DNA of 46,096 nt from a virus, in IMG/VR virus record IMGVR_UViG_3300028027_000086, positions 1 through 46,096 of that record; one strand, 5' to 3'. A program made the translations under genes and the position numbers. Positions within the stretch are counted from its first letter, which is position 1; each line of letters begins with the position of its first letter. Positions 4,721 to 46,096 of this stretch are shown here, in pieces. The notes below the pieces were generated by a model. The model worked only from the letters and a program-made list of their open reading frames with translations. It was not told the DNA's origin and searched no databases.

Positions 4721-4757
4721 GGTATTTATAAAAAATAATTACGACACTATATTTATA
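4721..4757 (+). promoter_or_regulatory. Candidate phage late promoter before gp25
   Basis: Two copies of TATTTATA lie between the nrdA terminator and the gp25 start: one inside GGTATTTATAAAAA from about 4722, and one at 4750-4757 within the near-palindrome CTATATTTATAG, three bases before the ATG. The same motif precedes other structural units on both strands. The promoter role is inferred from position only. Confidence 0.45.
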
Positions 4758-26404: not shown

Positions 26405-26418
26405 TGATATAAATATTC
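26405..26418 (-). promoter_or_regulatory. Candidate late promoter of the 833-residue fibre gene
   Basis: The minus strand reads GAATATTTATATCAC directly before the ATG at 26403, with TATTTATA at plus positions 26408-26415, four bases from the start codon. If it acts as a -10 element the message would be leaderless or nearly so. The motif recurs before other fibre genes. Confidence 0.4.
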
Positions 26419-28040: not shown

Positions 28041-28054
28041 ATACTATAAATAAT
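28041..28054 (-). promoter_or_regulatory. Candidate late promoter of the 186-residue gene
   Basis: The minus strand carries ATTATTTATAGTATAA, with TATTTATA at 28045-28052. It shares the 14-base core TATTTATAGTATAA exactly with the site before the 898-residue fibre gene. It overlaps the glycosyltransferase stop codon and lies 21 bases from the ATG. Confidence 0.5.
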
Positions 28055-29024: not shown

Positions 29025-29045
29025 AATAATTAAAACGTTTTTAAT

Positions 29046-29062
29046 TAAATATAAATGACAAT
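29046..29062 (-). promoter_or_regulatory. Weak candidate promoter of the glycosyltransferase gene
   Basis: The minus strand reads CATTTATATTTAATT, one base from the TATTTATA motif (plus 29050-29057), about 25 bases before the ATG at 29024. It lies in the 78-base divergent gap shared with the small plus-strand gene. Weak support. Confidence 0.25.
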
Positions 29063-29090
29063 CAAATGTAATAAATGGTAAAGATGATGA

Positions 29091-29098
29091 TATTTATA
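29091..29098 (+). promoter_or_regulatory. Candidate late promoter of the small plus-strand gene
   Basis: TATTTATA lies at 29091-29098, four bases before the ATG at 29103. This is the same geometry as at gp25 and at the 833-residue fibre, and it supports the small gene being real and expressed in the plus direction inside a minus-strand region. Confidence 0.42.
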
Positions 29099-29102
29099 TA
29101 AT

Positions 29103-29282
29103 ATGAAACTGATTAGAACAATATCAAATTTGGTTACAGAATCTAAAAGAATTTACGAAGAAGCCTGTGAAAAAGGTGTCAACGAAAAAGAATTAGATAG
29201 ATTAGAAAAAAACTACAATGAATCTTTAAAACTTTTAAGATTGTATGAGGGTTTGAATAAATCAAATAAAGAAATATCTTAA
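29103..29282 (+). CDS. Small helical protein, unknown
   Basis: 59 residues (starts MKLIRTISNLVTESKRIYEE and continues charged to a C-terminal NKSNKEIS), too short for usual gene finders. It reads as one or two amphipathic helices rich in Lys, Glu and Leu. It is the only plus-strand gene within the minus-strand fibre island. Its stop TAA shares bases with the stop of the convergent 898-residue fibre gene (TTAA at 29279-29282). A TATTTATA motif immediately upstream and the good start support it as real. A DNA-binding or assembly-chaperone role is possible but unproven. Confidence 0.55.
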   Translation: MKLIRTISNLVTESKRIYEEACEKGVNEKELDRLEKNYNESLKLLRLYEGLNKSNKEIS

Positions 29283-31975
29283 GGTACTATACATAAAGAA
29301 CTTCCTATTCTATACACAGAACCTGAAGGTAATCCTGCTCCACTTGTTGGAATATTCATAATTGATAAATTATTCACAAATGTTGAATAATTTCTATTTG
29401 CGGTTATATTTGTACCAATTACCATAGCATTTGCGTAATTTGTAATTGTGTTACCAAATCCACCTAAAATGGCTGAATTAGTTGTTGTTCCACCTGAAAT
29501 TAAATTTTTATAACCACCACCAATAGTTACGTCACACCCTGATGCGGTATTCTGTCTTCCACCACCAATAAAAGAATTAGGGCATTGTGTGGTATTAAAA
29601 CCACCCCCACCTATTGTTGAACGATAACCACTGGCACAATTATTAGAACCACCACCGATTACGGAATCTCTACATATTGAATTATTTTCTCGACCACCAC
29701 CAATAAATGAATATTCTCCGGATGAAAGATTACATCTACCACCACCAATTGTTGAATCTTGACCTGATGATGTGTTACATCTACCACCTGAAATTGTTGA
29801 ATTATTTCCTGATACAAGATTACATAAACCACCACCAATTGATGAATAGCTTGTTGTTATACAATTCTTTGAACCACCACCAATAGATGAAGCGATTCCT
29901 GACGAAATATTACAAAAACCACCAGAAATAGAAGAACTGTTACACCTTGATTGATTACTTTGACCACCCCCAATAAATGATGTAGTTCCTGATGCAACAT
30001 TACAAATTCCACCTCCAATAGTTGACCAACAACCTGACGATGTGTTAATACTACCACCGCCTATAACTGAGAAACAATTACTTGATGTATTTCCTGAACC
30101 GCCAACAATAACTGAAAAAGAATTACTTGATGTATTCTTACACCCACCACCAACAAATGAACAATAACACGCAATATTACATATTCCTGTACCAATGAAT
30201 GAAACAGTTCGTGCCCGATTACAAAATCCATTTGATATTGTTGAATAATTATCACAAGAAATATTATTACCACCTCCGACAACAATTGCACTATTTCCAC
30301 AAGCACAGTTATTGGCACCACCAACAACAATTGCACTGTTACCATAAGTTGTGTTAGATAAACCTCCACCAATAAAAGAATAGTATCCGTACCCAACACA
30401 ATTATTACAACCACCAACAATCGATGAATATTTGGTGTAATATGAAGATATACCATTAGATTGACCACCACCAATTGTTGAAAACATACTTGATACGGTA
30501 TTTCCTGAACCTCCAACAATTAACGAACAACTTGAACATATAGTATTACGTGTACCACCACCAATAAAAGTAGATGATTCACAAGAGGTGTTACAATATC
30601 CACCACCAATTACTGATAAAGAACTGTATAGTGACATATAATTGTATTGACCACCACCGATGAAGGATGTTCCACCACAAGTACAATTAGCTTTTCCACC
30701 ACCTATTGTTGAGAAGGCTCTTAATGATTGATTTCCCTGACCACCACCAATCATTGACGATGGTTCAGAAATATAGTTAGATTTACCACCACCAATAATT
30801 GAACAACCACCTGTTGGTCCAACAACATTTAAAGCACCACCACCAATAAACGCGAAACATTCTGATACGGTATTACCTGTACCGGCTCCCACAAATGAAA
30901 AGTCCCCTGAAGCAATGTTTTTAAAACCACCACCAATGAAGGAAGTAGTTCCACCACTAATAGTGTTTTGATAACCGCCACCAATAAATGAATACCTACT
31001 TGAGTTAGTGTTGTATTCTCCACCAACAATAGAAGAATAACAACCTGTTGCAATATTATTACCACCACCACCAACAAAACCAAAACAACAAGAATGATTT
31101 TTACAACCGGCACCAATAAATGAAAATCCACAAACACAATTTTGAAATCCCCCACCAATTGATGAGTGATTACCACCGGCAATATTATATTGACCACCAC
31201 TAATTGTGTTTGTTGTGCCTGAGGTTATGTTAGAAACCCCACCACCAATTGTTGATTGACTACCTGATGAAATATTACATCTACCTCCAGATATTGTTGC
31301 GTATGAGCCTGAGATTGAATTTTGTAGTCCACCACCTATGAACCCAAAACAACATGAAATGTTTTGACGACCACCAGCAATTGTTGAAAACCCATTAAAT
31401 GTTGAATTACATCCACCACCACCAACAAATGAATGAGGCCCTGAAGCGGCATTTTTACAACCACCACCTACTGTTGAATAATAATTTGACGAAATATTAT
31501 TATCACCACCACCAATGAATGATAGTCTACCTGAAGAGGTGTTAGAACAACCACCACCAACAGTTGAAGAAAAACTTCCTGATATATTACAACGACCACC
31601 ACCTATTGTTGAGTAACAACCGGAATTAGTGTTTTTATAACCACCTCCAATGAATGAATGTGTCCCACCACTAACTATATTTTGTCGTCCACCAACAACC
31701 ATTGAATTGTTTGTTGTTGCTGAGTTTGAATATCCTCCTAAAGCTCCGGAATTATTACCTGATGCAAGATTATTAACATCTCTTCTTATAGATGAGTTAA
31801 CACCTGTTCCACTAACAATAACAACAAATGGTGAACCACTAATTGCTTCATCAATGGTTGATTTATAAGATGAACCGGCAGCGTTTTGGGTAGGATTATT
31901 AGTATCAACAATATGGATTAATGTTTGACTAGTTGTAAAACCTGATGGTGAATATGTTCTTTGAGTTAAAATCAT
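29279..31975 (-). CDS. YadA-like beta-roll fibre with IGGG repeats
   Basis: 898 residues. Nearly all of it (about 70-855) is a 15-residue repeat of the form S-x-IGGG-x-x-N-x-x-S-G, for example SFIGGGYKNTNSG or STIGGGRCNISGS. Roughly 50 copies are present. This matches the left-handed beta-roll heads of trimeric autotransporters such as YadA (Hep/Hag repeats), which form long trimeric rods. Cys is unusually common inside the repeats (CNISCCFGF, RCNISSG). The C-terminal SGAGLPSGSVYRIGSSLCIV resembles closing segments of phage fibre proteins. No signal peptide or membrane anchor, so it is a virion fibre. Receptor binding is inferred. It stands alone with its own motif upstream. Confidence 0.8.
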   Translation of the reverse strand: MILTQRTYSPSGFTTSQTLIHIVDTNNPTQNAAGSSYKSTIDEAISGSPFVVIVSGTGVNSSIRRDVNNLASGNNSGALGGYSNSATTNNSMVVGGRQNIVSGGTHSFIGGGYKNTNSGCYSTIGGGRCNISGSFSSTVGGGCSNTSSGRLSFIGGGDNNISSNYYSTVGGGCKNAASGPHSFVGGGGCNSTFNGFSTIAGGRQNISCCFGFIGGGLQNSISGSYATISGGRCNISSGSQSTIGGGVSNITSGTTNTISGGQYNIAGGNHSSIGGGFQNCVCGFSFIGAGCKNHSCCFGFVGGGGNNIATGCYSSIVGGEYNTNSSRYSFIGGGYQNTISGGTTSFIGGGFKNIASGDFSFVGAGTGNTVSECFAFIGGGALNVVGPTGGCSIIGGGKSNYISEPSSMIGGGQGNQSLRAFSTIGGGKANCTCGGTSFIGGGQYNYMSLYSSLSVIGGGYCNTSCESSTFIGGGTRNTICSSCSLIVGGSGNTVSSMFSTIGGGQSNGISSYYTKYSSIVGGCNNCVGYGYYSFIGGGLSNTTYGNSAIVVGGANNCACGNSAIVVGGGNNISCDNYSTISNGFCNRARTVSFIGTGICNIACYCSFVGGGCKNTSSNSFSVIVGGSGNTSSNCFSVIGGGSINTSSGCWSTIGGGICNVASGTTSFIGGGQSNQSRCNSSSISGGFCNISSGIASSIGGGSKNCITTSYSSIGGGLCNLVSGNNSTISGGRCNTSSGQDSTIGGGRCNLSSGEYSFIGGGRENNSICRDSVIGGGSNNCASGYRSTIGGGGFNTTQCPNSFIGGGRQNTASGCDVTIGGGYKNLISGGTTTNSAILGGFGNTITNYANAMVIGTNITANRNYSTFVNNLSIMNIPTSGAGLPSGSVYRIGSSLCIVP
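29440..31765 (-). repeat. 45-base coding tandem repeat (IGGG units)
   Basis: The 15-residue repeat unit of the YadA-like fibre gives an approximately 45-base periodicity, about 50 units with diverged sequence. The recurring plus-strand core is CCACCACCAATNNNTGA. Units are protein-coding and not CRISPR-like. The array is a candidate for length change by recombination between units. Confidence 0.85.
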
Positions 31976-31988
31976 TGGTTTTTGTTTT

Positions 31989-32002
31989 ATACTATAAATA
32001 GT
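31989..32002 (-). promoter_or_regulatory. Candidate late promoter of the YadA-like fibre gene
   Basis: The minus strand reads ACTATTTATAGTATAA, a near-perfect palindrome around TATTTATA (plus 31993-32000), 17 bases before the ATG at 31975. It is the best copy of the motif and matches the site at 28045 over 14 bases. Confidence 0.5.
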
Positions 32003-32005
32003 TCA

Positions 32006-32311
32006 TTATTGGAAATCGTATATTACAAAATCCATAAATTCAAAATATTCGTAATCTTGGAATTGTTTTGGAACTGGTGGTAATAAATTACAATATACCA
32101 CTTCAAATCTTTCACAACCATCACCATAGATAACTTTAATACCTACTGCGGCCACATTATTAAATTGTTGTGGTAATACGATAACATTGTCAGGAGGTAC
32201 TGATGTAGTGATTGTGGCAATTAAAATACATTGGTTACCATATACATCACACGCATAAATTGTATACGGAAAGTTTGAACCTGTGATTGATTGTATGTTA
32301 ATTGCTGTCAT
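32006..32311 (-). CDS. Small adhesin-module protein, paralogue of the 35437 gene
   Basis: 101 residues. The core (INIQSITGSNFPYTIYACD, then VGIKVIYGDGCERFEV) lines up with the 71-residue product at 35437: [16 protein letters not shown], then [16 protein letters not shown]. So the two are paralogous single beta modules with a SprB-like flavour. This one has a C-terminal tail ending EYFEFMDFVIYDFQ. It lies three bases after the 734-residue gene's stop, within the same operon. Possibly a fibre cap or connector; role unknown. Confidence 0.55.
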   Translation of the reverse strand: MTAINIQSITGSNFPYTIYACDVYGNQCILIATITTSVPPDNVIVLPQQFNNVAAVGIKVIYGDGCERFEVVYCNLLPPVPKQFQDYEYFEFMDFVIYDFQ

Positions 32312-32314
32312 ATC

Positions 32315-34519
32315 TTAAAAAGTATATAATGGATTTGGTATTCCGACTATTGAACCATTGACAACTGTTACGACAGTATCAGGGTAATTTGTTGAGGTTC
32401 TGACACCATTAACAATTGGGTTTGCTTTAATTGTGTAAGTGTTATTTGCCCCTCCTTGTGTTATTTGATAATCGTAAACATAAATTAATTGTGATTGAAA
32501 CTGAGTATTAGGGTTTGTTGTTATACCTTTAGAACTAAAATCACATGTTTGTGAAGATAACGCAGGTATTGGTGTATATGGTGAACTACTTCCTGAAAAA
32601 GGTAGTGTAGAATTTAGAGAATTATTAAATCCATATGAACCTTCTACAATTCCTGTAAGACTATTTGACGTTGATTTACTTACATACCAATATATACTTA
32701 CCGGGTCAATATATCTTGAACCAACATTAGACGTAATTGTTCGGTTATTAGTAGTTCCAGTAGATGATGTGTTAACATCATTTACAATTGTGTCTACAGA
32801 AGAAGAACAACCAACATCACAATTAGTAAAATTCATATTATTTTGTATTGTTGGCATTGGGATTCTTAACGTGTAATTGTTTGAGGTTTGACCCGTTGTA
32901 ATAACACTTGAGAAATGAATATTATATTGTAATTCAGTAGTTCCGTCACCACAAGTTTGATTACCGGATGAGTTAGGAATCGAGAGTTCACCGTATTTGT
33001 AATAATCAATATTTGTTGAATCATTTATCCATCCAGAAGCTGATTTTTTAGATTCATAAGATGTTTTATACGATATTAAATCATTTAAATCCGTGAACGT
33101 CATATCAATAACACCTTGTAATCCACTAACCGTTTTTAAAAATGATATTGTACCATTTGAACTAGGTGTGAAACAAGTTGGGGTTTGATAACCATTTCCT
33201 GCTTTACCACATTGGGTGTAATTAATTCTTGTTTGAATATTACGAGTAATTAGTGATGTTATATTACTACCAAGAACGCTTCCAAAATAATTTGAACCTG
33301 AGTTGGTAGTTGTAACCATGTATTTGTAAATGTCTGAAGATGTTATTTGATTTTGAGTACATGCTGACAAATCAAAAACAATTGTATTCAGTCCACAAGT
33401 TCCTGAAATATTAGTTATTGATGATGTTTTTATTTTGTATGGTGTGTTTAAATAATTGTCTAAACATAATGAACAATCAAAAGTGTTTAAACAAGTGAAA
33501 TAAAAATCCCAATTTGTTGTTGGATTATTTGGGTTTGGAATTACTTCTAAAATAAGATAATCACCTGAATTTATAGTTAAATTACTTAAATCAGTTACTT
33601 TAGAAAGATAAGACGTGTTAGTAGGTGTTGCGGCAGATTTAGGTAATGTTAGTAAAGATAAATTAGATGTGAATTGGGTTGAAAATGCACCTATTGTTAT
33701 AAATTCTAATATAATTGGTTCACTATATGATGAGCCGTAAAATGTTATTTTAAGTGTGTCAGGTACACTTTCACCATTAAATTTCCACGCAAAATAATTT
33801 GTTGTTACATCAAGTTCAAAGGTTGAATTTAAAGTTAATGGTGTGACACCTTCTGATGCTCCGGCAAAATTAACTCTATGAGTATAATCACCAACTACAG
33901 TTCCGTTATCACAAGTAAAAGGGAAGACTTCAACAGTTGTTCCGTTAAAACATTCTAATTCTGATTGAATGTAACCTGTTCCACCTGTTTGAGAAAAATC
34001 AAGACCGTTTAGTTTTACTTTATCAATTACGGGAATATAAACCCCCGATGGTTGCATAGGAGAATTTATACCTGTTAATGGATGCGTAAAATCATACGGT
34101 GAAAATTCATTTCCAAATCCTGAAGTAAATGCTATATTTGTTGTTGAATTAGGGCCATACCAAAATATTTTATAATCAGATATTTCAGTATCACAACTAC
34201 CGGTTAAATTTCCGGCGACTATTCGACCAATATTTGTTGTTTCATAATCGTCAAAATATAAATCACATGTGGTACACAAATCATTAGATAACAATTCAAT
34301 TGTTGCGCAACATTTAGTAAATGTATCAATTATTTTTATAGATGTTGTCCCATTAGGTACATTACCCATGATATATGGACAATTATCAAATAAATCATCA
34401 TAACTAACATTCGTTTGAAATGCGTTAAAATATTGGTCAACGTTAGAATAAATGTTAAATGTTCCTCCTAAAGCGACAGTACCGGAATTGGTTAAACAAG
34501 TTGATGCTGAAAATGGCAT
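32315..34519 (-). CDS. Large adhesin-like fibre protein
   Basis: 734 residues. The first ~15 residues (MPFSASTCLTNSGTVALGG) resemble those of the next gene upstream ([19 protein letters not shown]), so the two share an N-terminal attachment module. Several beta-like segments with paired Cys occur (CCATIELL, CTTCDLYFDDY, CSLCLDNY). The protein is Thr/Asn/Ser-rich throughout, with no membrane span or signal peptide. No catalytic motif was found. It is flanked by other fibre-type genes and is probably an exposed appendage subunit. Confidence 0.6.
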   Translation of the reverse strand: MPFSASTCLTNSGTVALGGTFNIYSNVDQYFNAFQTNVSYDDLFDNCPYIMGNVPNGTTSIKIIDTFTKCCATIELLSNDLCTTCDLYFDDYETTNIGRIVAGNLTGSCDTEISDYKIFWYGPNSTTNIAFTSGFGNEFSPYDFTHPLTGINSPMQPSGVYIPVIDKVKLNGLDFSQTGGTGYIQSELECFNGTTVEVFPFTCDNGTVVGDYTHRVNFAGASEGVTPLTLNSTFELDVTTNYFAWKFNGESVPDTLKITFYGSSYSEPIILEFITIGAFSTQFTSNLSLLTLPKSAATPTNTSYLSKVTDLSNLTINSGDYLILEVIPNPNNPTTNWDFYFTCLNTFDCSLCLDNYLNTPYKIKTSSITNISGTCGLNTIVFDLSACTQNQITSSDIYKYMVTTTNSGSNYFGSVLGSNITSLITRNIQTRINYTQCGKAGNGYQTPTCFTPSSNGTISFLKTVSGLQGVIDMTFTDLNDLISYKTSYESKKSASGWINDSTNIDYYKYGELSIPNSSGNQTCGDGTTELQYNIHFSSVITTGQTSNNYTLRIPMPTIQNNMNFTNCDVGCSSSVDTIVNDVNTSSTGTTNNRTITSNVGSRYIDPVSIYWYVSKSTSNSLTGIVEGSYGFNNSLNSTLPFSGSSSPYTPIPALSSQTCDFSSKGITTNPNTQFQSQLIYVYDYQITQGGANNTYTIKANPIVNGVRTSTNYPDTVVTVVNGSIVGIPNPLYTF

Positions 34520-34529
34520 ATTTAAATTT

Positions 34530-35435
34530 TTAAGTTTTATTATACATGTATCCTTCTAAACCACAATCGATACATTCCGAAGGCATTCCCGAAGGTGTTA
34601 CTGTAGGTGTTGGTGTTGGTGTTGGTGTATTAATTTGTGAACAGAAAATACAATCACCTAAATTAGAAAAACCATACGGTCCTGTAATTAATGTTATTTC
34701 ATCAATACCTATTGTATTATTGTTTACACCAACATAAGAAATACACGATATTTCACTATTAACATTTGCCTGATAAACTTCAAATTTAGTTATGGTGTTT
34801 CCGGTAGGTGTTATGATTTGATTTGTTGTGTAATACATCTTACCATTATAACAATCTTGGAATTGATAACTATATGGGCAAATAATACTATCATCAATGG
34901 TATTAAAACTAACTGAACCGTCAAAGGTGCAATCACGAGAAATTTGTGGTGATGGTGTAGGTGTTAATGTTGGTGTTGGTGTTGGTGTTGGACTTACACT
35001 TTGTATTGTTGCGCTAATAACGACATTACAAGGGTTCGTTGGTGTTGGAGTAGGTGTTGGTGTTACAGAAGTTGTTGGTGTTGGTGTGGGTGTTTGAGTT
35101 GTCTGAAAATCACAATCAAAAAACGCCGAAAAATCTAAACTAGAACAATTTTGTGTTGGACTCGGAGTTGGTGTTGGACACGCTCCACTAGAAAAATAAA
35201 CATCATCTAAATCCGGACATGGGTTAAAACAAGGCGATTGACCTGATAAATCACAAGTCCCCCCTGTTACGGTTGATAAACACCATTGAGTTGTTCCGGT
35301 ATTATAGTAAATAACTAATCCATTAGTTTGACCGGTCCAATATAGTTGAGAATTGTATGTTCCTGCACTAAAATAAACATCGTCAAATGTTGGGTAACCT
35401 GTGTTAGATAAGCAATATGATGAACTACAAGGCAT
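34530..35435 (-). CDS. Fibre protein with N-terminal module and Thr-Pro linkers
   Basis: 301 residues. It opens [20 protein letters not shown], like the 734-residue protein. A repeated short element, DDVYFSAG near residue 18 and DDVYFSSG near 77, frames a small beta domain. Three Pro-rich linkers follow ([19 protein letters not shown] near 116, [14 protein letters not shown] near 149, [12 protein letters not shown] near 272), with a beta domain between. It ends near [14 protein letters not shown]. The linkers make it a likely glycosylation target of the enzyme encoded at 28044. Structural role inferred from sequence and neighbours. Confidence 0.62.
34594..35180 (-). repeat. Four Thr-Pro coding minisatellite tracts in the 301-residue fibre
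   Basis: Tracts of GGTGTT/GGTGTA units lie at about 34594-34629, 34947-34991, 35035-35098 and 35155-35180 on the plus strand, encoding Thr-Pro runs on the minus strand. They resemble those at 25.7 kb and, inverted, at 22.5 kb. Confidence 0.8.
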
Positions 35436-35436
35436 A

Positions 35437-35652
35437 TTATAATGTTAAATTTAAAATTGATTCACAATTATTATCATCAATAACTTTTAGGTTAAAAGAT
35501 GTTAATGAACTCCAAATAGGTGGTATTATCACATTATATGGAAACGTTGAAATTGTATCTATATAGATTGATAAAGTAATTGGATTATCGCACAGATAAA
35601 TCTGAAATGGTGATGTTCCGGTAATATTACTGATTGTTATTTGTGTACTCAT
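35437..35652 (-). CDS. Small adhesin-module protein, first gene of the minus-strand operon
   Basis: 71 residues, a single beta module ([19 protein letters not shown], then [13 protein letters not shown]). It is a shorter paralogue of the 101-residue product at 32006. The gene lies at the head of the minus-strand operon, with a TATTTATT motif 16 bases upstream, and is one base away from the 301-residue gene. No signal peptide or membrane segment. Perhaps a small fibre subunit or assembly partner of the larger fibre next to it. Confidence 0.52.
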
Positions 35653-35664
35653 TTTATTATGTTA

Positions 35665-35678
35665 TCTCAATAAATATA
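35665..35678 (-). promoter_or_regulatory. Candidate late promoter of the minus-strand fibre operon
   Basis: The minus strand reads ATATTTATTGAGATAAC (TATTTATT at plus 35669-35676), 16 bases before the ATG at 35652. The gap also holds the divergent host-type promoter of the primase gene, so this 85-base region would fire leftward late and rightward early. Confidence 0.4.
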
Positions 35679-35701
35679 ATGGGAATGAAAAACTTGTGAA
35701 G

Positions 35702-35733
35702 ATTGACTGTTATAATATTTTTTCTTATCTTTG
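35702..35733 (+). promoter_or_regulatory. Bacteroidota-type promoter of the primase operon
   Basis: ATTG (35702-35705), a 20-base spacer and TATCTTTG (35726-35733) match the Bacteroidota primary sigma consensus TTTG-N19-21-TAnnTTTG with one mismatch in the upstream box. The ATG at 35738 is four bases downstream, so the message may be leaderless or have a very short leader. It suggests host RNA polymerase starts the replication operon. Confidence 0.68.
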
Positions 35734-35737
35734 CTGT

Positions 35738-36637
35738 ATGTCAGATGATGCCGAAATTTTATTAGAAATACTACACGATATATTAGGGGATGAAAAACTT
35801 CACTATGAATCAAAAGGTCAAATATCTTTTGATTGTCCAATATGCGATGAAGACCAACACAAAGGAAACCTTGAAGTGAATTACTTTGAACACGTTTATA
35901 AATGTTGGAGTTGTGGTGATGAAAATAATACAAAAGGACCACTTGGTAAACTAATTGACAACTTTGGGGATAAGAAACAAAAGAAAATTTATAACTTACT
36001 TCAACCTGAAAACCATAAACCAAAAGAGAAACGTAAGGATTACTTAAAGTTACCAACAGGATTTACTTTATTTAAAGATAGTAGTTTGGTTTATCCGGTT
36101 CGTCGTCAAGCGTATAATTACCTTAAACAACGTGGGATTACCGATGAGATTATTGAGAAGTATGGTATCGGATTCTGTGATACAGGTGCGTTCTCAGGTA
36201 GAATCATTATACCATCATATGATGGTAAGAATAATTTAAATTATTTTATTGCTAGAAGTTGGGACTTAAACTCAAGAGCAAAATATAAAAATCCGGAAGC
36301 ATCCAAGGATGAGATAATATTTTTTGAGAATACTATCAATTGGAATGAAGACATTCATCTTTGTGAAGGAGCATTTGATGCTATCTTCCTACCAAATAGT
36401 ATTGCTATGTTGGGAAAACATATGTCGGAGTTATTACTTAATACATTATATGAGAAGGCGAATGGTAATATAATCATTTGTTTGGATAGTGATGCTTGGG
36501 TGGATGCTGTTAAATTATACCACAACTTAAATGGTGGTAGATTATATGGTAAAGTTAAAATAATAAAATTAACGGGTGATGCCGATGTTGCCGATTTAAG
36601 GGGCGACATTAGTAATTACTTTTATAAAATGAAATAG
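35738..36637 (+). CDS. gp61: DNA primase, DnaG/T4 gp61-like
   Basis: 299 residues. A zinc finger (C33, C36, C56, C59 in CPIC and CWSC) at the N-terminus and a TOPRIM-type catalytic region (LCEGAFDAIF, and LDSDAW with the DxD pair) identify a primase that lays RNA primers for lagging-strand synthesis. It is shorter than cellular DnaG, as is T4 gp61. The frame extends upstream to a GTG at 35696, but that would place the start inside the promoter, so the ATG at 35738 is chosen. It would pair with the gp41-like helicase at the left edge. First gene of the replication/recombination operon. Confidence 0.88.
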   Translation: MSDDAEILLEILHDILGDEKLHYESKGQISFDCPICDEDQHKGNLEVNYFEHVYKCWSCGDENNTKGPLGKLIDNFGDKKQKKIYNLLQPENHKPKEKRKDYLKLPTGFTLFKDSSLVYPVRRQAYNYLKQRGITDEIIEKYGIGFCDTGAFSGRIIIPSYDGKNNLNYFIARSWDLNSRAKYKNPEASKDEIIFFENTINWNEDIHLCEGAFDAIFLPNSIAMLGKHMSELLLNTLYEKANGNIIICLDSDAWVDAVKLYHNLNGGRLYGKVKIIKLTGDADVADLRGDISNYFYKMK

Positions 36638-37501
36638 ATGATAGATTTAAATGATGTTGCAAAAGAAATAAGGGGGTTGTTAGATAAGAGAAGAGAAGAA
36701 CTTGAACTAACATTCGTTGAGGACACCCACACTTATTTTATGAAGGATGTTAATGGTGTGATGAAAAGTGATTTTCCATCGGTGAGTAAGGTAATCAAGT
36801 ATTTCTATGAGGAATTTGATAGTGAAGGTATATCATTCAAGAAAGCCAAAGGTGACGTGTTTGTTCAACAACAATTATTAGAAGAGTGGAAGGCAGCCGG
36901 TGATTACGCAACCAATATGGGTAGTAGAGTTCACTATTTGTTGGAGAAAAAAGTTATTGATATGTTTGGTGGTTATAAAGATGTAAGACAGCCAATATTT
37001 GAATGTGATTTTACTCAAGTATTAAAAGGTGACTCAATGGTATCTGCCGGAACAGCATATCTAAACCTTATGGTTGATAGAGGGGCTGTTTTATTAGATA
37101 CTGAGATTGTATTGGGTGACCCTGAATTAGGTTATACAGGACAACCGGATAAGGTGTGGTTAATAATGAATAAAGAACAAACTGAATTTGGGTTGGTGAT
37201 AACTGATTGGAAATCAAACAAGCCGAAGAACTTTGAGGAAACTCATTTTACTACAAGAATGAAATACCCATTTCAAAAACACCCAAACAACGCGTTGGGT
37301 CACTACTTTACCCAATTACCTTTTTATGGTAAACTTCTTCTTAAAATGTTACAGGGAACTAAATATGAAAACATGAAATTATTTGGATGTATAATTGTCT
37401 TGGTAAAAGAAACTGGTGAGTATGAAGAGTTTCGAGTACCAAAGGATGTGATTACAACTATATTGGATATGGATATGAAAAAGTATTTGACAAAGAAATA
37501 A
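36638..37501 (+). CDS. PD-(D/E)XK exonuclease, RecB/Cas4-like
   Basis: 287 residues. Motifs in order: H99 (GSRVHYLLE), E156 (LDTEIVLG), D171 (YTGQPDKVWLI), and D190/K192 (VITDWKSNK), the H...E...D...DxK layout of RecB-family nucleases. It directly follows the primase (no gap), so it is expressed with replication genes and probably trims DNA ends in recombination-dependent replication. No helicase or iron-sulphur Cys cluster is visible, so a Cas4 role is less likely. A DNA-degrading role against the host chromosome is also possible. Confidence 0.78.
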   Translation: MIDLNDVAKEIRGLLDKRREELELTFVEDTHTYFMKDVNGVMKSDFPSVSKVIKYFYEEFDSEGISFKKAKGDVFVQQQLLEEWKAAGDYATNMGSRVHYLLEKKVIDMFGGYKDVRQPIFECDFTQVLKGDSMVSAGTAYLNLMVDRGAVLLDTEIVLGDPELGYTGQPDKVWLIMNKEQTEFGLVITDWKSNKPKNFEETHFTTRMKYPFQKHPNNALGHYFTQLPFYGKLLLKMLQGTKYENMKLFGCIIVLVKETGEYEEFRVPKDVITTILDMDMKKYLTKK

Positions 37502-37529
37502 AAAATAATTAAATTTAAAATAAAAACGT

Positions 37530-37745
37530 ATGGACGATTTATTAAAACCAAAGATTGATTTAAAGCAACAACCAACATTAGTATGTGAAGAATGTGGTGG
37601 GATGTACTTCAAAGAAGTTGTTATGATAAAAAAAGTTAACAAATTGTTAACAGGAAGTTCGGAAGATACTATTGTACCTTTCCCAACTTACAGATGTGAT
37701 GATTGTGGTCACGTAAATGAAGAATTTAAATTATTTGATAAATAA
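37530..37745 (+). CDS. Small zinc-ribbon protein
   Basis: 71 residues with two CxxCG knuckles (CEECGGMYF and CDDCGHVNEEF) about 30 residues apart, a compact zinc ribbon of the kind used for DNA, RNA or polymerase binding. The ATG at 37530 is preceded only by A/T-rich sequence. It overlaps the next ATG by its stop (TAATG). Lies between the nuclease and gp47-like genes; a regulatory role in transcription or recombination is possible, but the sequence does not say which. Confidence 0.6.
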   Translation: MDDLLKPKIDLKQQPTLVCEECGGMYFKEVVMIKKVNKLLTGSSEDTIVPFPTYRCDDCGHVNEEFKLFDK

Positions 37746-37933
37746 TGAAAATAGTTAAACGAAATGAAGTTTGTGGTGTCTGCACCGCAACGTTGTGGTG
37801 GATACCAGCATTAACCTATTTCAATCTGAAGATGGTTAATATAATATCTCCCAGTAAAGAATGGGTATGGTGGGTTGCAATCCCGGTTATGTTTTTAATT
37901 TGGGTATTATTAAATTGGAAAATAAAAAAATAA
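37745..37933 (+). CDS. Small membrane protein
   Basis: 62 residues with two hydrophobic stretches: ATLWWIPALTYFNL (about 19-32) and VWWVAIPVMFLIWVLLNW (about 41-58). A CGVC pair sits near the start, and Lys-rich ends flank the segments. Likely an inner-membrane hairpin. Phages encode such proteins to alter lysis or exclude superinfection, but nothing here decides a role. Coupled to the zinc-ribbon gene (TAATG) and two bases before the gp47-like gene. Confidence 0.5.
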   Translation: MKIVKRNEVCGVCTATLWWIPALTYFNLKMVNIISPSKEWVWWVAIPVMFLIWVLLNWKIKK

Positions 37934-37934
37934 A

Positions 37935-38720
37935 ATGATAAAAAAATTAGTTCACTTTAGTGACTTACACATACGATTATTCAAAGACCACGATTTATAC
38001 CGTGGAATCTTAAATAATATGTTGGAACAATTCAGAGAAATTGCTCCGGACAGGATTGTCTTCACAGGAGACTTAGTTCATTCCAAAAACCAAATGACTC
38101 CGGAACTTATTGAGTTTGTTGCTTGGATTCTTACAGAATGTTCTCAAATAGCCAAAACTATAATCATAATTGGAAACCACGACTTCTTGGAGAGCAACTC
38201 TTCAAGGTTGGATGCTCTTACACCGGTAATTGATTCATTAAAGAATGACAACATTGTTTATTTGAAGAACAGAGGTGAATACGAGGACGAAAATGTTGAT
38301 TGGGTGGTGTATTCATTACTTGACCATAACATTCCACCTGAGATTGAAAAAACGGGTAGGTTAAAAATTGGTTTATTTCACGGGCCAGTTCAGGGATTAA
38401 CAACTGACATTGGATATAAGTTTGAAACCGGGTTTGAAACGGATAAGTTTGACGGATGTGATTTGGTATTATGTGGAGATATTCACAAAAGACAAATCTT
38501 TAACATCCCGGGTGGAAAGAAAGCGTATATGGTGGGTTCAACAATCCAACAGAACTATGGTGAGACAATAACCAAACACGGATTCGGAATCTATAATCTT
38601 GAGACAGATGATTATTCATTTGTTGATTTGGATAATCCAAAACCTTTCTTATCATTTAAGATGAAATCATTTGATGATATAATAAACGGAACAGAAAAAC
38701 TTGTTAACAGCGGAAAATAA
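37935..38720 (+). CDS. gp47: SbcD-like nuclease, T4 gp47 family
   Basis: 261 residues. Metallophosphoesterase motifs: D10/H12 in FSDLHIR, GD at 45-46 (FTGDLVHS), N81/H82 (IIGNHDFLE), then LFHGPVQG and CGDIHKRQ. It forms the Mre11/Rad50-like complex with the SbcC-like product at 41972, which processes DNA ends for recombination-dependent replication. Length fits viral gp47. The next gene's ATG overlaps its stop (38720). In T4 gp47 and gp46 are near-adjacent; here they are separated by eight small genes. Confidence 0.88.
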   Translation: MIKKLVHFSDLHIRLFKDHDLYRGILNNMLEQFREIAPDRIVFTGDLVHSKNQMTPELIEFVAWILTECSQIAKTIIIIGNHDFLESNSSRLDALTPVIDSLKNDNIVYLKNRGEYEDENVDWVVYSLLDHNIPPEIEKTGRLKIGLFHGPVQGLTTDIGYKFETGFETDKFDGCDLVLCGDIHKRQIFNIPGGKKAYMVGSTIQQNYGETITKHGFGIYNLETDDYSFVDLDNPKPFLSFKMKSFDDIINGTEKLVNSGK

Positions 38721-39136
38721 TGAAAAAATATAGTGATTATCCGGAAAACGAAAACCCTTGGGTTAAATATAAAATTATCGTTCCTACTGAAGAAGACAGA
38801 CAAGAGTTGATGAAAGGGTTTGAACATTTCCATTATTCTGATGTTGATACCGAGAATATAGTTGTTAATCAATTAATCCACGAATATCTTGATGAGGAAC
38901 GAATGGAAGGTGCTAAAAACAATATTATCGTTGATTCGGTGTTATATAATAAATTAACAAACAATTTAATAGGTAGAACACTTGATTTAGATTTGGGGTC
39001 TACACCGGTTAATGTTTCTATAAAAGAAATTACCGATACCAAAGTTATTGTGGAATATAATCGTTCAACTCCAGGAAGAACTGAAGAGTTTAATATTGGT
39101 GATTTTGAGTATTTCAGTGGATTAAAAATTAAATAG
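38720..39136 (+). CDS. Unknown protein of the replication operon
   Basis: 138 residues, acidic (many Asp/Glu), no recognised motif. The N-terminus (MKKYSDYPENENPWVKYKII) starts on the stop of the gp47-like gene (overlap of one base). The second half (LDLGSTPVNVSIKEITDTKV, then FNIGDFEYFSGLKI) reads as beta-rich. No membrane or Cys features. It could be a recombination or replication accessory factor, but nothing more can be supported. Confidence 0.5.
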   Translation: MKKYSDYPENENPWVKYKIIVPTEEDRQELMKGFEHFHYSDVDTENIVVNQLIHEYLDEERMEGAKNNIIVDSVLYNKLTNNLIGRTLDLDLGSTPVNVSIKEITDTKVIVEYNRSTPGRTEEFNIGDFEYFSGLKIK

Positions 39137-39138
39137 AA

Positions 39139-39396
39139 ATGGGAAATCTTAGACAATCAATGACTGATTCTGAATGGAACGAAATGGAACATGAAATTCA
39201 GAGAGAAAAAAAATTAGGAAAACCGGAACACGGATATATTGGTATTTGGGTGGATAAACTAACAATCAAACAATTGAAAAAACTTAAAAATAAGTTGAAA
39301 AAATGTGGTATTGATAGTCACGATTGTTCCAAAGTTAACCAATGGATAACTTATAACGAAAACAAAGAACGTGAGTCAAATCAAACTAACGACTAG
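39139..39396 (+). CDS. Small basic protein, unknown
   Basis: 85 residues, Lys-rich and mostly helical, with a stretch KLTIKQLKKLKNKLKKCGI that could form a basic amphipathic helix for nucleic acid contact. The ATG at 39139 is two bases after the previous stop. Its end overlaps the GTG start of the next gene by 26 bases. No family recognised. Confidence 0.48.
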   Translation: MGNLRQSMTDSEWNEMEHEIQREKKLGKPEHGYIGIWVDKLTIKQLKKLKNKLKKCGIDSHDCSKVNQWITYNENKERESNQTND

Positions 39397-40042
39397 TCAA
39401 TTAAAATCTGTACAAGAATATTGTAAATTAAATAAAATTGAATATGTCGACAATTTTATCACAAAATGTTTTGCGTCCGGATTTAGTATTGAAAAGTACG
39501 GGTTACTTGGTGAAGATTCAGAAAAACCGGTAGAGATTGAAATTATCAAAGAAATACGGGTTGAAGTTCCGGTTGAAGTCATCAAGGAGGTTGAAAAAAT
39601 TGTTGAAGTTGTTAAGGAAGTTCCGGTCGAAACCATCAAAGAAGTTGAGGTCATCAAATATGTTGATAGAGAGGTGGTTAAGGAGGTTAAAGTGGAAGTT
39701 CCTGTCGAAAAAATAGTATATATTTACGACAAAAAAGAAGAAGAAAGTGTCACAAATTTAGACAATATTTGTGACAAACCTGAACCAATAATAGTAGAAA
39801 AAATAGTTGAAGTTATTAAGGAAGTTCCGGTTGAAAAAATAGTAGATAAAATTGTCGAAGTTGAAAAACCAAATGATAAGGTATTACTTCTTCAAGAAAC
39901 TTTACAGACATTAAAAAAAGAATTATCTTTAAAGAACTCAAGAATTGAAGAACTTGAAGAAAAAAATAAACTATTAGAATCCAATAAATTAAGTCAAGGT
40001 GCTGTATACCTTAAAGGTTCTAATTTAAATGAAATGATGTAA
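39371..40042 (+). CDS. Repetitive Val/Lys/Glu-rich protein with coiled-coil end
   Basis: 223 residues. A compact head (residues 1-50) is followed by repeats built from units like EVPVEVIKEVEKIVEVVKEV and EVPVEKIVDKIVEV (about 55-175). These alternate Val and charged residues as in extended beta or coiled structures. The last 45 residues (LLQETLQTLKKELSLKNSRI) are a clear coiled coil. Starts at a GTG, and no ATG is near. Such repeats occur in structural or scaffold-like proteins. The role is unknown; a spacer or oligomerising protein is plausible. Confidence 0.5.
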   Translation: MSQIKLTTSQLKSVQEYCKLNKIEYVDNFITKCFASGFSIEKYGLLGEDSEKPVEIEIIKEIRVEVPVEVIKEVEKIVEVVKEVPVETIKEVEVIKYVDREVVKEVKVEVPVEKIVYIYDKKEEESVTNLDNICDKPEPIIVEKIVEVIKEVPVEKIVDKIVEVEKPNDKVLLLQETLQTLKKELSLKNSRIEELEEKNKLLESNKLSQGAVYLKGSNLNEMM

Positions 40043-40043
40043 T

Positions 40044-40322
40044 ATGGAAAATTATTATTTAGATATAAGAGTTAGTGGTGGTAAGGAAGAAATACAAGAA
40101 TTACTTGAATTACTAACGAAGATACAAATTTTAGGGTCAATAGGTTCTAATAGGACTATTCCGGTAACGGTCGATGGTGATGGTAGTGCCAGACTACGTT
40201 TTACTACTACCTCAACGGAAGAAGACCAAATTGAAAAAATAAAAGAATTTCGTTCTATCCAAAAATTCATAAGTGAAGTTGAAGAAGGTGGTGAAATAAG
40301 CGAACATTATATAGGAGAATAA
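40044..40322 (+). CDS. Small acidic protein, unknown
   Basis: 92 residues, Glu-rich, alpha/beta-like (YYLDIRVSGGKEEIQELLEL at the start, IPVTVDGDGSARLRFTT in the middle). The alternating pattern and length suggest a small ferredoxin-like or ACT-like fold, but no family was identified. The ATG follows the previous gene by one base and its stop is one base before the membrane protein gene, so it is co-transcribed with both. Confidence 0.48.
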   Translation: MENYYLDIRVSGGKEEIQELLELLTKIQILGSIGSNRTIPVTVDGDGSARLRFTTTSTEEDQIEKIKEFRSIQKFISEVEEGGEISEHYIGE

Positions 40323-40323
40323 T

Positions 40324-40668
40324 ATGGAAATTTTAGTATGGGTTATATTAAGCTACGGGCTTATGAACATTATGGTATTCGGGTCAATATTTCAAGGACT
40401 CAGAAATTTCTTCCAAGTTTGGGGAGATAATAAATTATTACCATTTAATGGTATTGCACATTTCATTTCAGGAATATTGACTTGTCCAATGTGTTTTTCA
40501 ACTTGGGGTGGATTTATTTTGTCTTTAACAATTTTTTCACCTACACTTACATTGTTTGGAACACCTATTTGGATAAGTTGGTTCTTTGATGGAATTTTAT
40601 CATCAGGTGCTGTATGGGCGATAAACGCAATAGTTGAATGGTTTGAAGAAAATAGACCAACTAAATAA
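40324..40668 (+). CDS. Membrane protein, DUF1360-like
   Basis: 114 residues with about three hydrophobic spans: WVILSYGLMNIMVFG, SGILTCPMCFSTWGGFILSL, and a third near ISWFFDGILSSGAVWAIN. The LTCPMCFSTWGGF motif is like the CPxC...W motif of DUF1360 proteins, which are small inner-membrane proteins of unknown function. The start ATG lies a base after the previous stop. Role in the phage cycle (membrane alteration, exclusion) is guesswork. Confidence 0.58.
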   Translation: MEILVWVILSYGLMNIMVFGSIFQGLRNFFQVWGDNKLLPFNGIAHFISGILTCPMCFSTWGGFILSLTIFSPTLTLFGTPIWISWFFDGILSSGAVWAINAIVEWFEENRPTK

Positions 40669-40669
40669 T

Positions 40670-41191
40670 ATGGAAAATAAATTAGGTAATTTTATAATTA
40701 AGTATCTACAAGACAAAACAGAAACAAGAAAAATAATCAAGTGTGACGATTTTTTCCAATTACTTGATAATATGTCTATTACTGATGATAGTGATGAAGT
40801 TGTTAATATCATCTATTACTTGGAAGATAATAAAATAGATATTAATTTTCACGGGGCAAACACTCAGAATTTTTATACTAGATATAGAAATATTGAAAGA
40901 AAAGTTCAGATGTCTAAAATGTTAAAAGGGTCTAAACCGGAAGTTCAGAAACTAATTGAAAAAGTTGAAAATATTAATATTAAAGAAAGACCGGATTGGT
41001 TGGAATTTTATAGAAATGATGATGAAGATTCTGAACTCGGTAATTATACAACATCAGATAGAGATAGAAATTTAGGTAAAGATATTCTTGATAAGCTAAC
41101 TAATGAAATTAAGGAAAAAATTAATAATGAACCTGGAATAACTTTAGAAGAAATCCGAGAACAAATGAATAACGAAATAAATAACAATTAA
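40670..41191 (+). CDS. Unknown helical acidic protein
   Basis: 173 residues from the ATG at 40670; the frame is open upstream to a TTG at 40634, which lies in the previous gene. Glu/Asp/Asn/Lys-rich, mainly helical, with no Cys, membrane or catalytic motif. The C-terminal 40 residues (LGKDILDKLTNEIKEKINNE) look coiled-coil-like. Runs directly after the membrane-protein gene in a tight operon. Possibly an oligomerising or DNA-associated factor; unassigned. Confidence 0.48.
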   Translation: MENKLGNFIIKYLQDKTETRKIIKCDDFFQLLDNMSITDDSDEVVNIIYYLEDNKIDINFHGANTQNFYTRYRNIERKVQMSKMLKGSKPEVQKLIEKVENINIKERPDWLEFYRNDDEDSELGNYTTSDRDRNLGKDILDKLTNEIKEKINNEPGITLEEIREQMNNEINNN

Positions 41192-41203
41192 ATAAATACA
41201 ATT

Positions 41204-41467
41204 ATGCCAAAGTCAAAATTACGTGGTGGTGCAAAGGCACACAAAACAAGAGTTACACACAGAAACAACACTATTAAAGGGTTAAGAAAAAAAGCTCAAA
41301 AAGAGTTTAATGAAATGTTTGAGAAACAAATGGAAGAGTTGAAGGCTCAATACAAAAATGAGAATGGTGAAACAATGGAATTAAATGCTGAAGTTCTTGG
41401 GGAATCAAGTGAAATTAATGTAAATGACGCTGAGGTTGTAACTCCTGAAGTTGAAGATGAGAACTAA
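41204..41467 (+). CDS. Small protein, basic N-terminus and acidic C-terminus
   Basis: 87 residues. The first ~35 are basic (MPKSKLRGGAKAHKTRVTHR, then NNTIKGLRKKAQ), like a nucleic-acid-binding arm. Residues 36-60 form a charged helix and the last 30 are acidic (VNDAEVVTPEVEDEN). No recognised family. Its stop overlaps the ATG of the kinase gene by 11 bases, so the two are coupled. Confidence 0.5.
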   Translation: MPKSKLRGGAKAHKTRVTHRNNTIKGLRKKAQKEFNEMFEKQMEELKAQYKNENGETMELNAEVLGESSEINVNDAEVVTPEVEDEN

Positions 41468-41966
41468 GATAGTATCCGCGTTTCCCGGTGTAGGAAAAAC
41501 AACTTACCATAAAAATAATCCTAGTACCACTTTGGATTCCGATTCAAGTAAATTTAGTTGGGTTGTTAATGAGAATGGTGAAAAAGTAAGAAACCCTGAG
41601 TTTCCACAGAACTATATTACCCATATCAAAGAGAATATTGGTAAATACAAATACATCTTTGTTTCTTCACATAAAGAAGTGAGAGATGCTTTGTTAGACA
41701 ACTGTCTATACTTTTACTTGGTTTATCCGGATGACAGGAGAAAAGAAGAGTTTATCCAAAGATATAAAGATAGAGGTAATGATGAGAACTTTATTAAATT
41801 AGTTGATTCTAAATGGGATGAATGGATGTCAGAATACTATTGGATGGATAGAGGTTGTGAAAAACTAACAGCATATGATGGTTGGAATTTAGATACTGTA
41901 TTGGAAGCTCAAGACAGAAGAGATGGTGGTGATGTCATTCAAGAAGAAGTAGAAGAACTGAATTAA
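41457..41966 (+). CDS. P-loop kinase-like protein (putative nucleotide or polynucleotide kinase)
   Basis: 169 residues. A Walker A loop AFPGVGKTT lies at residues 8-16, right after the first strand. It is followed by a LID-like region (YPDDRRKEEFIQRYKDRGND) and an acidic helix (LVDSKWDEWMSEYYW). The size and layout fit the adenylate-kinase-like P-loop fold that phages use as dNMP or end-repair kinases. Starts at the ATG at 41457; an in-frame TTG at 41451 is less likely. Coupled to the previous gene and five bases before the SbcC-like gene. Substrate not determined. Confidence 0.62.
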   Translation: MRTKIVSAFPGVGKTTYHKNNPSTTLDSDSSKFSWVVNENGEKVRNPEFPQNYITHIKENIGKYKYIFVSSHKEVRDALLDNCLYFYLVYPDDRRKEEFIQRYKDRGNDENFIKLVDSKWDEWMSEYYWMDRGCEKLTAYDGWNLDTVLEAQDRRDGGDVIQEEVEELN

Positions 41967-41971
41967 AACAA

Positions 41972-44338: not shown

Positions 44339-44346
44339 AAAAACAA

Positions 44347-44976: not shown

Positions 44977-45500
44977 AACAACTTAATTATACAAAAAAAG
45001 GGGAGGTACACACTCCCCTCCTTTATTGGAGAACTGATGATAAGACCACTGTGGCAATCTATCAGGGTGAGAGAGGTGAAAATCCGGAACTTGATTTTAT
45101 TGTTAAGTACAAAGAAGATGGAAAACGATTAAGAATGCCGTCACACACTCATTGGATTGTTGATTTATTAGTTAAGGCGGAATATAATAAAGAGTTATTA
45201 TTATTGTATGTAAATAATTTAATTGAGCTTTATGACAATACCACTCCATTTTCAAGTCTTGAGGAAAGAAACGGTTATGAATTAAAGTTTGTGAATGTGA
45301 TGAATTTAAGGTATAATGATTTAAATAATCACGGTTATTACACTATTTCAACCCTTACATCGTTCATTGAATTGTTTTCTTTATGTGAAAAACAAACTAC
45401 AGGTGCGTTCATGTTCAAGGGGTTATTAACCTTGATAAAAGAATATTGTGAAGGGAAGAAAGATTTTTATCAAATTGTTGGATATTCTAAAAGAGTTTAA
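44973..45500 (+). CDS. Unknown protein
   Basis: 175 residues. The middle is helical (HWIVDLLVKAEYNKELLLLY, then YVNNLIELYDN). The C-terminus contains a short hydrophobic stretch but no membrane anchor. No recognised motif. It starts with ATGA overlapping the previous stop and ends where the next promoter begins. It could be a late accessory protein of the replication operon; nothing further is supported. Confidence 0.45.
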   Translation: MKQLNYTKKGEVHTPLLYWRTDDKTTVAIYQGERGENPELDFIVKYKEDGKRLRMPSHTHWIVDLLVKAEYNKELLLLYVNNLIELYDNTTPFSSLEERNGYELKFVNVMNLRYNDLNNHGYYTISTLTSFIELFSLCEKQTTGAFMFKGLLTLIKEYCEGKKDFYQIVGYSKRV

Positions 45501-45509
45501 TTACCTTTG
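45477..45509 (+). promoter_or_regulatory. Bacteroidota-type promoter of the last gene
   Basis: GTTG (45477-45480), a 21-base spacer and TACCTTTG (45502-45509) match the Bacteroidota primary sigma consensus. The ATG at 45541 is 31 bases downstream, a normal leader. With the site at 35726 it is the second host-type promoter seen before plus-strand genes of the replication block. Confidence 0.6.
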
Positions 45510-45540
45510 TAACATAATTTATAATATTAACGTATAACGT

Positions 45541-46096
45541 ATGGATGGATTAACCAAATACATTTTATTTGTCTTTGCCAAAAATGACAACCCAAAAGAA
45601 TTTACTGAACAAATTGCCGAAGAATTATGTGTTATTTCGGACACCCCACATCTTAATTTTTATTTTGGACCTGAATCGTCAGTGTTCACCATTACAACAT
45701 TAGATTCCTATGAGGATGTAAAAGATTATGTTGATATGATTTTAGGTATTGGTGAAATTATGTATATATTATTACCATACACATCTGACAAAATGTCATA
45801 CGGTTTACCTAAAAAAATATCGGAACACCTTTTTAATGATGGTGTTGGTGACTATATGTCAGGAAAAACTCAAAAAATTGAGGAAAAAGATGATGAGGTA
45901 CGAAATATGATAAGAAACAAGATTCGTGAAGAATTTTTCTTGGATTTAACCGGATGGAAAGATATTGATGACTTTCCTAAAGATAATATTATAAAAACTA
46001 AAAAAAGTCCTACCTTTGACGAACTATTTGAAAAGATAGCGGAGTCGGGTATTGAATCGTTGACTCCTGAAGAATTAGTAACGCTTAACCAATATT
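45541..46096 (+). CDS. Unknown protein, C-terminal helical tail (3' partial)
   Basis: An ATG at 45541 opens a frame that runs off the right edge (185 codons, no stop). The first ~95 residues form an alpha/beta domain (LTKYILFVFAKNDNPKEFTE, then VFTITTLDSYEDVKDYVDMI), and the middle is charged. The visible end reads FDELFEKIAESGIESLTPEE, then LVTLNQY. It resembles the short helical tail 'ILDKI...G..SLT.EE...L' seen at the C-termini of many Bacteroidota proteins (DUF6576-like). No enzyme motif. A host-type promoter precedes it, so it is probably an early or separately controlled gene. Confidence 0.6.
   Translation, partial: MDGLTKYILFVFAKNDNPKEFTEQIAEELCVISDTPHLNFYFGPESSVFTITTLDSYEDVKDYVDMILGIGEIMYILLPYTSDKMSYGLPKKISEHLFNDGVGDYMSGKTQKIEEKDDEVRNMIRNKIREEFFLDLTGWKDIDDFPKDNIIKTKKSPTFDELFEKIAESGIESLTPEELVTLNQY

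Follow-up and report, generated by a model that had tools for sequence, protein, structure and literature searches.

A Bacteroidota-type promoter abutting a phage primase gene, and two promoter-to-ATG registers that predict leaderless transcripts in its phage family

The window, by which we mean the whole stretch of 46,096 nucleotides that was analyzed, contains an 85-nt gap (35653-35737) between the start codons of two divergent genes. The minus-strand gene on its left, 35437-35652, is the end of a structural block. The plus-strand replication block on its right begins with a DNA primase gene (ATG at 35738-35740), followed by an exonuclease gene and then by SbcD/SbcC-like genes. Between the divergent genes, the segment 35702-35740 reads ATTG-N20-TATCTTTG-N4-ATG, the four nucleotides that separate TATCTTTG from the primase ATG being CTGT. 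An earlier, sequence-only reading of this DNA had recognized here a match to the consensus of the host primary sigma factor, four bases from the ATG and at the head of the replication block. This recognition was correct on both counts: the coordinates can be read directly, the motif is conserved in relatives, the -7 element agrees with the TAHHTTTG box of Bacteroidota sigma-A promoters, and the -33 element, ATTG with a 20-nt spacer, has three of the four letters of TTTG and falls within the TTTG/TTG, N19-21 pattern. By its sequence, this is a true promoter of the Bacteroidota sigma-A type, and it heads the primase/exonuclease/SbcD-SbcC block (Table 1).

Table 1. Promoter elements, boxes and genes located in the window
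Feature	Position	Strand	Basis or remark
TATTTATA, 3 nt before ATG 4761, short register	4750..4757	+	gp25-like baseplate gene 4761-5219
TATTTATA, 4 nt before ATG, short register	26408..26415	-	gene 23902-26403 (833 aa)
TATTTATA, long register, 21 nt	28045..28052	-	gene 27463-28023
TATTTATA, 4 nt before 59-aa ORF 29103-29282	29091..29098	+	between two minus-strand genes
TATTTATA, long register, 17 nt	31993..32000	-	gene 29279-31975
TATATTTAT element of divergent structural gene 35437-35652	35670..35678	-	window and relatives
Conserved box ACTTGTGAAG (ACTAATAAAG in sister clades)	35692..35701	+	centre -41.5 from predicted primase start
-33 element TTG of primase promoter	35703..35705 (ATTG 35702-35705)	+	sequence; TTG-N20 or TTTTG-N19 here in close relatives
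-7 element TATCTTTG	35726..35733	+	sequence and relatives; agrees with F. johnsoniae TAHHTTTG (PMC6847099)
Predicted transcription start, first base of start codon	35738	+	4 nt past -7 element; register statistics
DNA primase, first gene of replication block	35738..36637	+	phrog_47, E 6.4e-42
Second host-type promoter TTG-N21-TACCTTTG, leadered	45478..45509	+	heads gene adjoining RpoD-like sigma in relatives
First gene of sigma operon, cut by window end	45541..46096	+	DUF6576 match below cut-off

The spacing of this promoter has a consequence that had been missed. In F. johnsoniae, as reported in PMC6847099, the -7 box has the consensus TAHHTTTG and lies at -12 to -5, and for 241 of the 434 candidate promoters the gap between box and transcription start measures 4 or 5 nt. 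Applied to the window, this rule places +1 on the A of the primase ATG, so that the primase mRNA should be leaderless. The same spacing recurs genome-wide in related contigs.

Ninety-eight primase relatives were confirmed and 80 kept, on contigs of up to 318 kb (the window is a 46-kb virus record). The ATG was resolved in 71 of the 80 loci; the other nine (L073-L081), in which no in-frame ATG was found, were dropped. In 40 of the 71, a mere 4-5 nt separate the full -33/-7 motif from the primase ATG (21 at 4 nt, 19 at 5 nt), and 14 of the 32 distinct upstream sequences carry it at one of these distances. Five loci have the motif in a long register, 14 or 16 nt before the ATG. From 26 the strict motif is absent, and some of these show near-matches at the same place by eye.

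The gap holds a further conserved box, ACTTGTGAAG. A loose form of its pattern was found in 53 of the 80 relatives, and this conservation could mean that the primase promoter is under activator control. One could then envision a middle-type promoter, dependent on a phage or host activator bound at ACTTGTGAAG, and the primase operon would not be immediate-early. The box does persist where the -7 box decays, ten relatives having it without a strict -33/-7 motif. However, all 53 relatives with the box also carry the divergent ATAAATATA, upstream of which it lies, and it may serve that side of the gap; furthermore, it is not a repeated element, being present in 0-2 copies per contig. We regard activator dependence as unlikely, though worth keeping in mind.

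Distances (d) from box to called start were collected for host-type motifs within 45 nt of a start in seven related contigs (1.67 Mb; the window, G002 and G007 were left out and G009 was used minus its last 302 bases), the starts coming from a simple custom ORF caller that prefers ATG. The motif heads 144 starts, with d of 4-6 nt in 32, 7-11 nt in one and at least 12 nt in 109; in two it overlaps the start. The -7 box alone precedes 40 starts at d=4 in these contigs and the reversed box none. Independently of gene calls, an ATG lies at offset 4 from 27 of 245 full motifs, against 0-6 at neighboring offsets. The short-register starts are all ATG (32/32, and 144/144 for the TATTTAT[AT] class described below), a figure to be read with the preference of the caller in mind. 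Short-register and leadered genes differ at -3, where an A is a positive translation determinant in F. johnsoniae: it is found in 6 of 32 and 57 of 109 host-type genes, respectively (p=0.001); in the TATTTAT[AT] class the counts are 73 of 144 and 177 of 280 (p=0.016), again lower in the short register. Leadered host-type genes also have A at -11 to -13 in 70-89% of cases. This A-rich signal, present in F. johnsoniae genes as well, may explain the avoidance of 7-11 nt. The box itself dictates that short-register genes lack A-6 and the signals further upstream, so this absence carries no weight.

Orthologues tend to keep their register. Among reciprocal-best pairs of less than 75% identity, both members with a host-type motif, eight are short/short, 38 long/long, five mixed and six long/intermediate; the pairs are not independent, and the 32 short starts represent only 21 families. 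The start calls look equally good in both groups, since alignments begin no more than 6 residues from both starts in 53 of 78 cases for short host-type genes and 107 of 169 for leadered ones. An in-frame start codon is also present upstream in 7 of 32 host-type and 20 of 144 TATTTAT[AT] short-register genes, and another ATG falls within codons 2-16 in 4 of 32 and 26 of 144. Names could be given to three host-type short-register families: primase and SmpB, each short in three contigs, and a D12 DNA methyltransferase, short in one; of eight such genes searched against Pfam, three passed the cut-off (SmpB, D12 methyltransferase and, narrowly, Peptidase_M20).

The sequence-only reading had set the primase gene, with almost no leader, against the structural genes and their different box. 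As far as leaders are concerned, this contrast does not hold: short and long registers both occur among the genes behind TATTTAT[AT] boxes. In the seven contigs the box lies within 45 nt of 453 starts, at 3-5 nt in 144, 6-11 nt in 18, at least 12 nt in 280 and less than 3 nt in 11. Orthologue pairs below 75% identity comprise 79 short, 192 long, 45 mixed and 8 with an intermediate member. In the window, the gp25-like baseplate gene is in the short register, as it is in four of six other family members; gene 23902-26403 has this register in six of seven others, and the 59-aa ORF 29103-29282, probably a real small gene, in three of five. Ten short-register genes of the class gave a single PHROGs match, of unassigned function. 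The names structural and late are applied to the class because of the baseplate and structural-block genes of the window, and late expression is presumed from the structural genes that follow the boxes there.

The closeness of TATTTAT[AT] to many ATGs, its AT-rich composition and the fact that a clear -35 element was not seen raise the question of whether, at 3-5 nt, it is a translation signal and not a promoter, in which case only the host-type class would be leaderless. This seems improbable to us. The same box stands 12-22 nt before 206 starts with runs of A at a fixed offset: each of offsets 3-5 past the box is an A in 86-90% of these leadered genes (80-81% over all 280), and in short-register genes it is the ATG that occupies these offsets. 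Moreover, TATAAATA, the box of T4-type late promoters, is found 3-5 nt before only one of 90 starts.

T4-type late promoters resemble the TATTTAT[AT] class in having a single AT-rich box before structural genes, and five relatives encode a weakly late-sigma-like protein. They differ from it in the box, which here reads TATTTAT[AT] on the sense strand, and in that roughly one start in three here lies 3-5 nt away. Identity with the T4 type was rejected on the counts for the two boxes at that distance, 1/90 for TATAAATA and 144/453 for TATTTAT[AT].

Returning to the primase, its reading frame is open upstream past a GTG at 35696, both in the window (35696 to 35738) and in representatives of nine of the ten nearest relatives; L002-L008, L010 and L011 have no in-frame stop within 90 nt. 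The window by itself would thus leave room for a longer primase protein. The promoter could then be real and the primase nevertheless be translated from the GTG, on a longer transcript that begins further upstream and has a leader. We give this idea very little credit. In L009, whose protein is 93% identical, a stop codon in frame lies two codons ahead of the ATG, and 30 of the 32 distinct upstream sequences have such a stop within 63 nt. The residues directly past the ATG are conserved in closer relatives (in an alignment cut at the ATG), and only 85 nt lie between the two divergent start codons.

A scan of the window for TTG-N19-21-TANNTTTG, which the sequence-only reading had proposed, gave 11 matches (7 plus, 4 minus), near the 6.2 (sd 2.0) expected from second-order Markov sequences; one match is followed by N4-6-ATG, with 0.34 expected. 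By themselves the window statistics prove little and do not establish the site. It stands above chance because the motif is conserved before primase in relatives and because, in seven of the nine related contigs, TTTG-N18-21-TANNTTTG is clearly more frequent than the same pattern reversed (28-61 versus 1-20; for instance, 54 versus 6 in G001 and 61 versus 20 in G005). The excess is missing in G007 (12 versus 9) and G009 (11 versus 12). Mostly intergenic matches make up 35 of 90 in G001 and 44 of 100 in G005, as compared with 2 of 47 and 1 of 38 when the pattern is reversed. Chance occurrence in an AT-rich genome, for which the near-random count in the window might be invoked, can be dismissed in view of the conservation in relatives and the genome-wide positional signal. 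An E. coli sigma-70 scan of 30000-46096 was uninformative (105 sites versus 83, sd 11, in shuffles), and Megablast of the same segment against phage records gave no match.

A Bacteroidota host, proposed earlier from the promoter, is well supported by sequence comparisons of ribonucleotide reductase (RNR) and of a relative's sigma factor, though not every pointer agrees, the phage matches of primase and sigma being mixed. For the RNR small subunit the best plasmid match is a Hymenobacter gene, at 61.5% identity, and the runner-up reaches 43%; the large subunit is closest to Cellulophaga and Tenacibaculum phages. The phage records nearest the primase include a Microcystis phage beside Flavobacterium phages. 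Genome contigs lend no support to the host assignment, as none of the seven loci found in the primase alignment scan is from Bacteroidota. The best of them (46%) belongs to a Prochlorococcus single-cell assembly; this relative, L173, is possibly phage DNA caught with the cell.

The second match, reported earlier at 45477-45509, is indeed present (TTG 45478-45480, 21 nt, TACCTTTG 45502-45509), and it is leadered, being 31 nt from the ATG at 45541. The gene that begins there was matched in 39 of 80 loci; 18 of the matches begin at residue 1, and in those 18, by eye, the ATG follows TANNTTTG at a distance of 30-31 nt. All seven contigs checked have a gene of 177-196 aa directly followed by a sigma gene of 265-271 aa, and in six of them (not G009) the first gene is preceded, at 18-31 nt, by a long-register host-type promoter. 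In closer relatives this first gene is clearly homologous to the gene of the window; G005 and G008 lie outside that comparison. The synteny with G006 predicts a sigma gene immediately past the end of the window. A Sigma70_r2 protein scored above cut-off in all nine contigs, and regions 1.2, 2 and 4 are present in both sigmas tested. For the G001 sigma, the eight best plasmid-borne matches are all Bacteroidota RpoD/SigA (38-42% identical), and the best phage records are entries for Enterococcus phages and gut samples (37-38%). The presence of a host-type promoter on a phage RpoD-like sigma operon suggests a cascade from host sigma to phage sigma. Five contigs have a protein of 248-249 aa that weakly resembles a late sigma (phrog_234; of the two tested, one gave E 0.0012); the 249-aa protein of G001 (28630-29379), weakly gp55-like, is a candidate late sigma.

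No RNAP beta family match was found in any of nine relatives, some perhaps incomplete, and early transcription of the primase operon by host polymerase is likely. The further claim that this polymerase is unmodified was overstated, as relatives encode the RpoD-like sigma and five of them the gp55-like protein. Thus, from the earlier interpretation, the Bacteroidota sigma-A-type promoter and the host phylum stand and the leader contrast falls, timing and an unmodified polymerase being matters of deduction.

We put at about 75% the probability of the following reading: a sigma-A promoter, a leaderless primase operon and two family-wide registers, with a sigma cascade suggested. Host RNA polymerase would start the primase/replication operon on the A of AUG, and ribosomes would enter the resulting leaderless mRNA through its 5'-terminal AUG. 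The phage family would use two box-to-ATG registers, one of about 3-6 nt (leaderless) and one of at least 12-14 nt (leadered), the latter long enough to accommodate the A-rich signal that Bacteroidota mRNAs have at -11 to -13, and would do so under both host-type and TATTTAT[AT] boxes. Host sigma would act first, followed by the phage RpoD-like sigma made from the operon of the second promoter. The promoter, its conservation, the two registers and the operon order in relatives are read from sequence; the position of the transcription start, leaderless translation, the timing of expression and the identity of the factor that reads TATTTAT[AT] are inferred.

How far these registers are peculiar to the phage family was judged from host and phage controls. 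In 1.2 Mb of Prevotella, treated by the same method as the phage contigs, the short register accounts for 4 of 45 host-type promoters versus 32 of 142 in the family (p=0.05), and the -7 box alone gives 18 of 159 versus 49 of 239 (p=0.02); a first control of 400 kb had given 2 of 20 (p=0.25). The short register thus occurs in hosts also, about half as often, and the enrichment over host is modest. Isolated Bacteroidota phages yielded 2 of 52 versus 32 of 142 (p=0.0013; pT24 1/36, Larrie 1/11, crAss001, 60 kb, 0/5, immuto, 50 kb, 0/0), and these low counts indicate that the short register is not general among Bacteroidota phages. In immuto, phiST, RM378 and Colly_1 the full pattern shows no clear excess over its reverse. 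For TATTTAT[AT], the short register (d 3-5; 144 of 453 in the family) is rarer both in Prevotella (3 of 34, p=0.003) and among the phage isolates (1 of 27, p=0.0009), differences that are not significant when d=3 is placed outside the short bin (p=0.15 and 0.23).

The host-type promoters of these phages are like the sigma-ABfr promoters (TTTG / TAnnTTTG) described for Bacteroidota in their boxes, their spacing and the 4-5 nt to the predicted start (PMC6847099, PMC9723704, PMC7366714). They differ in being used by phages and in the frequency of the short register, which is commoner than the 5.5% of leaderless mRNAs reported in the F. psychrophilum host map or the approximately 3.7% of 5'UTRs shorter than 10 nt reported in B. 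thetaiotaomicron, though measured differently. In F. johnsoniae, 87% of transcripts with a probable promoter are reported to have leaders of more than 10 nt (PMC6847099). Lambda is named for leaderless mRNA in PMC3160421, and the AR9 paper states that phage transcripts "are often leaderless" (PMC5312081). The present arrangement is like these known cases in having the start codon at the 5' end, here as a prediction, and unlike them in that the register recurs across many genes, goes with either type of box and is kept between orthologues. Leaderless phage transcripts are thus already known, and the feature described here is an enlarged, conserved version of a known class. Among the best-ranked literature matches, none was found that describes such registers for Bacteroidota phages.

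Three of the nine related contigs encode bS21 (G001:44411, G002:27723, G003:272389), which fits the bS21-encoding jumbo phages described from freshwater by Chen et al. (2022, PMC9723584); those myophages have Bacteroidetes hosts and genomes of up to 331 kb. In the main text of PMC9723584, the terms promoter, leaderless and sigma do not occur. Phage IF3 was found in none of nine contigs. As a reason for leaderless genes, bS21 was not retained, no link being shown: G004 and G005 have short-register genes and no bS21 match.

Ribosomes of Bacteroidota do not use Shine-Dalgarno pairing. It is tempting to speculate that a family of giant Bacteroidota phages has two translation classes set by promoter spacing under both kinds of box, and that of the genes with such promoters about one in five to one in three, primase and SmpB included, are translated by direct AUG entry; we would give this even odds. 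If so, direct AUG entry would be a route that a phage could favor when remodeling host ribosomes (some relatives have bS21, and no link was found). The registers turn a single promoter guess into a testable genome-wide rule, with predicted 5' ends for about 176 starts in seven contigs (32 host-type, 144 TATTTAT[AT]). The rule helps in annotating start codons and small genes and ties host-type promoters to the phage-sigma operon; if confirmed, it would define a phage family with systematic leaderless translation in both promoter classes.

Some observations on translation-related genes may be added. Phage SmpB is encoded in five of nine contigs (G001, G003, G004, G005 and G008; for example, L101:3549-3989). 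ARAGORN, run on G001, G003 and G005, reported tRNAs and no tmRNA. Large tRNA arrays, with 18-23 tRNA calls, are present in three giant relatives (L087-L088, L111-L112 and L116).
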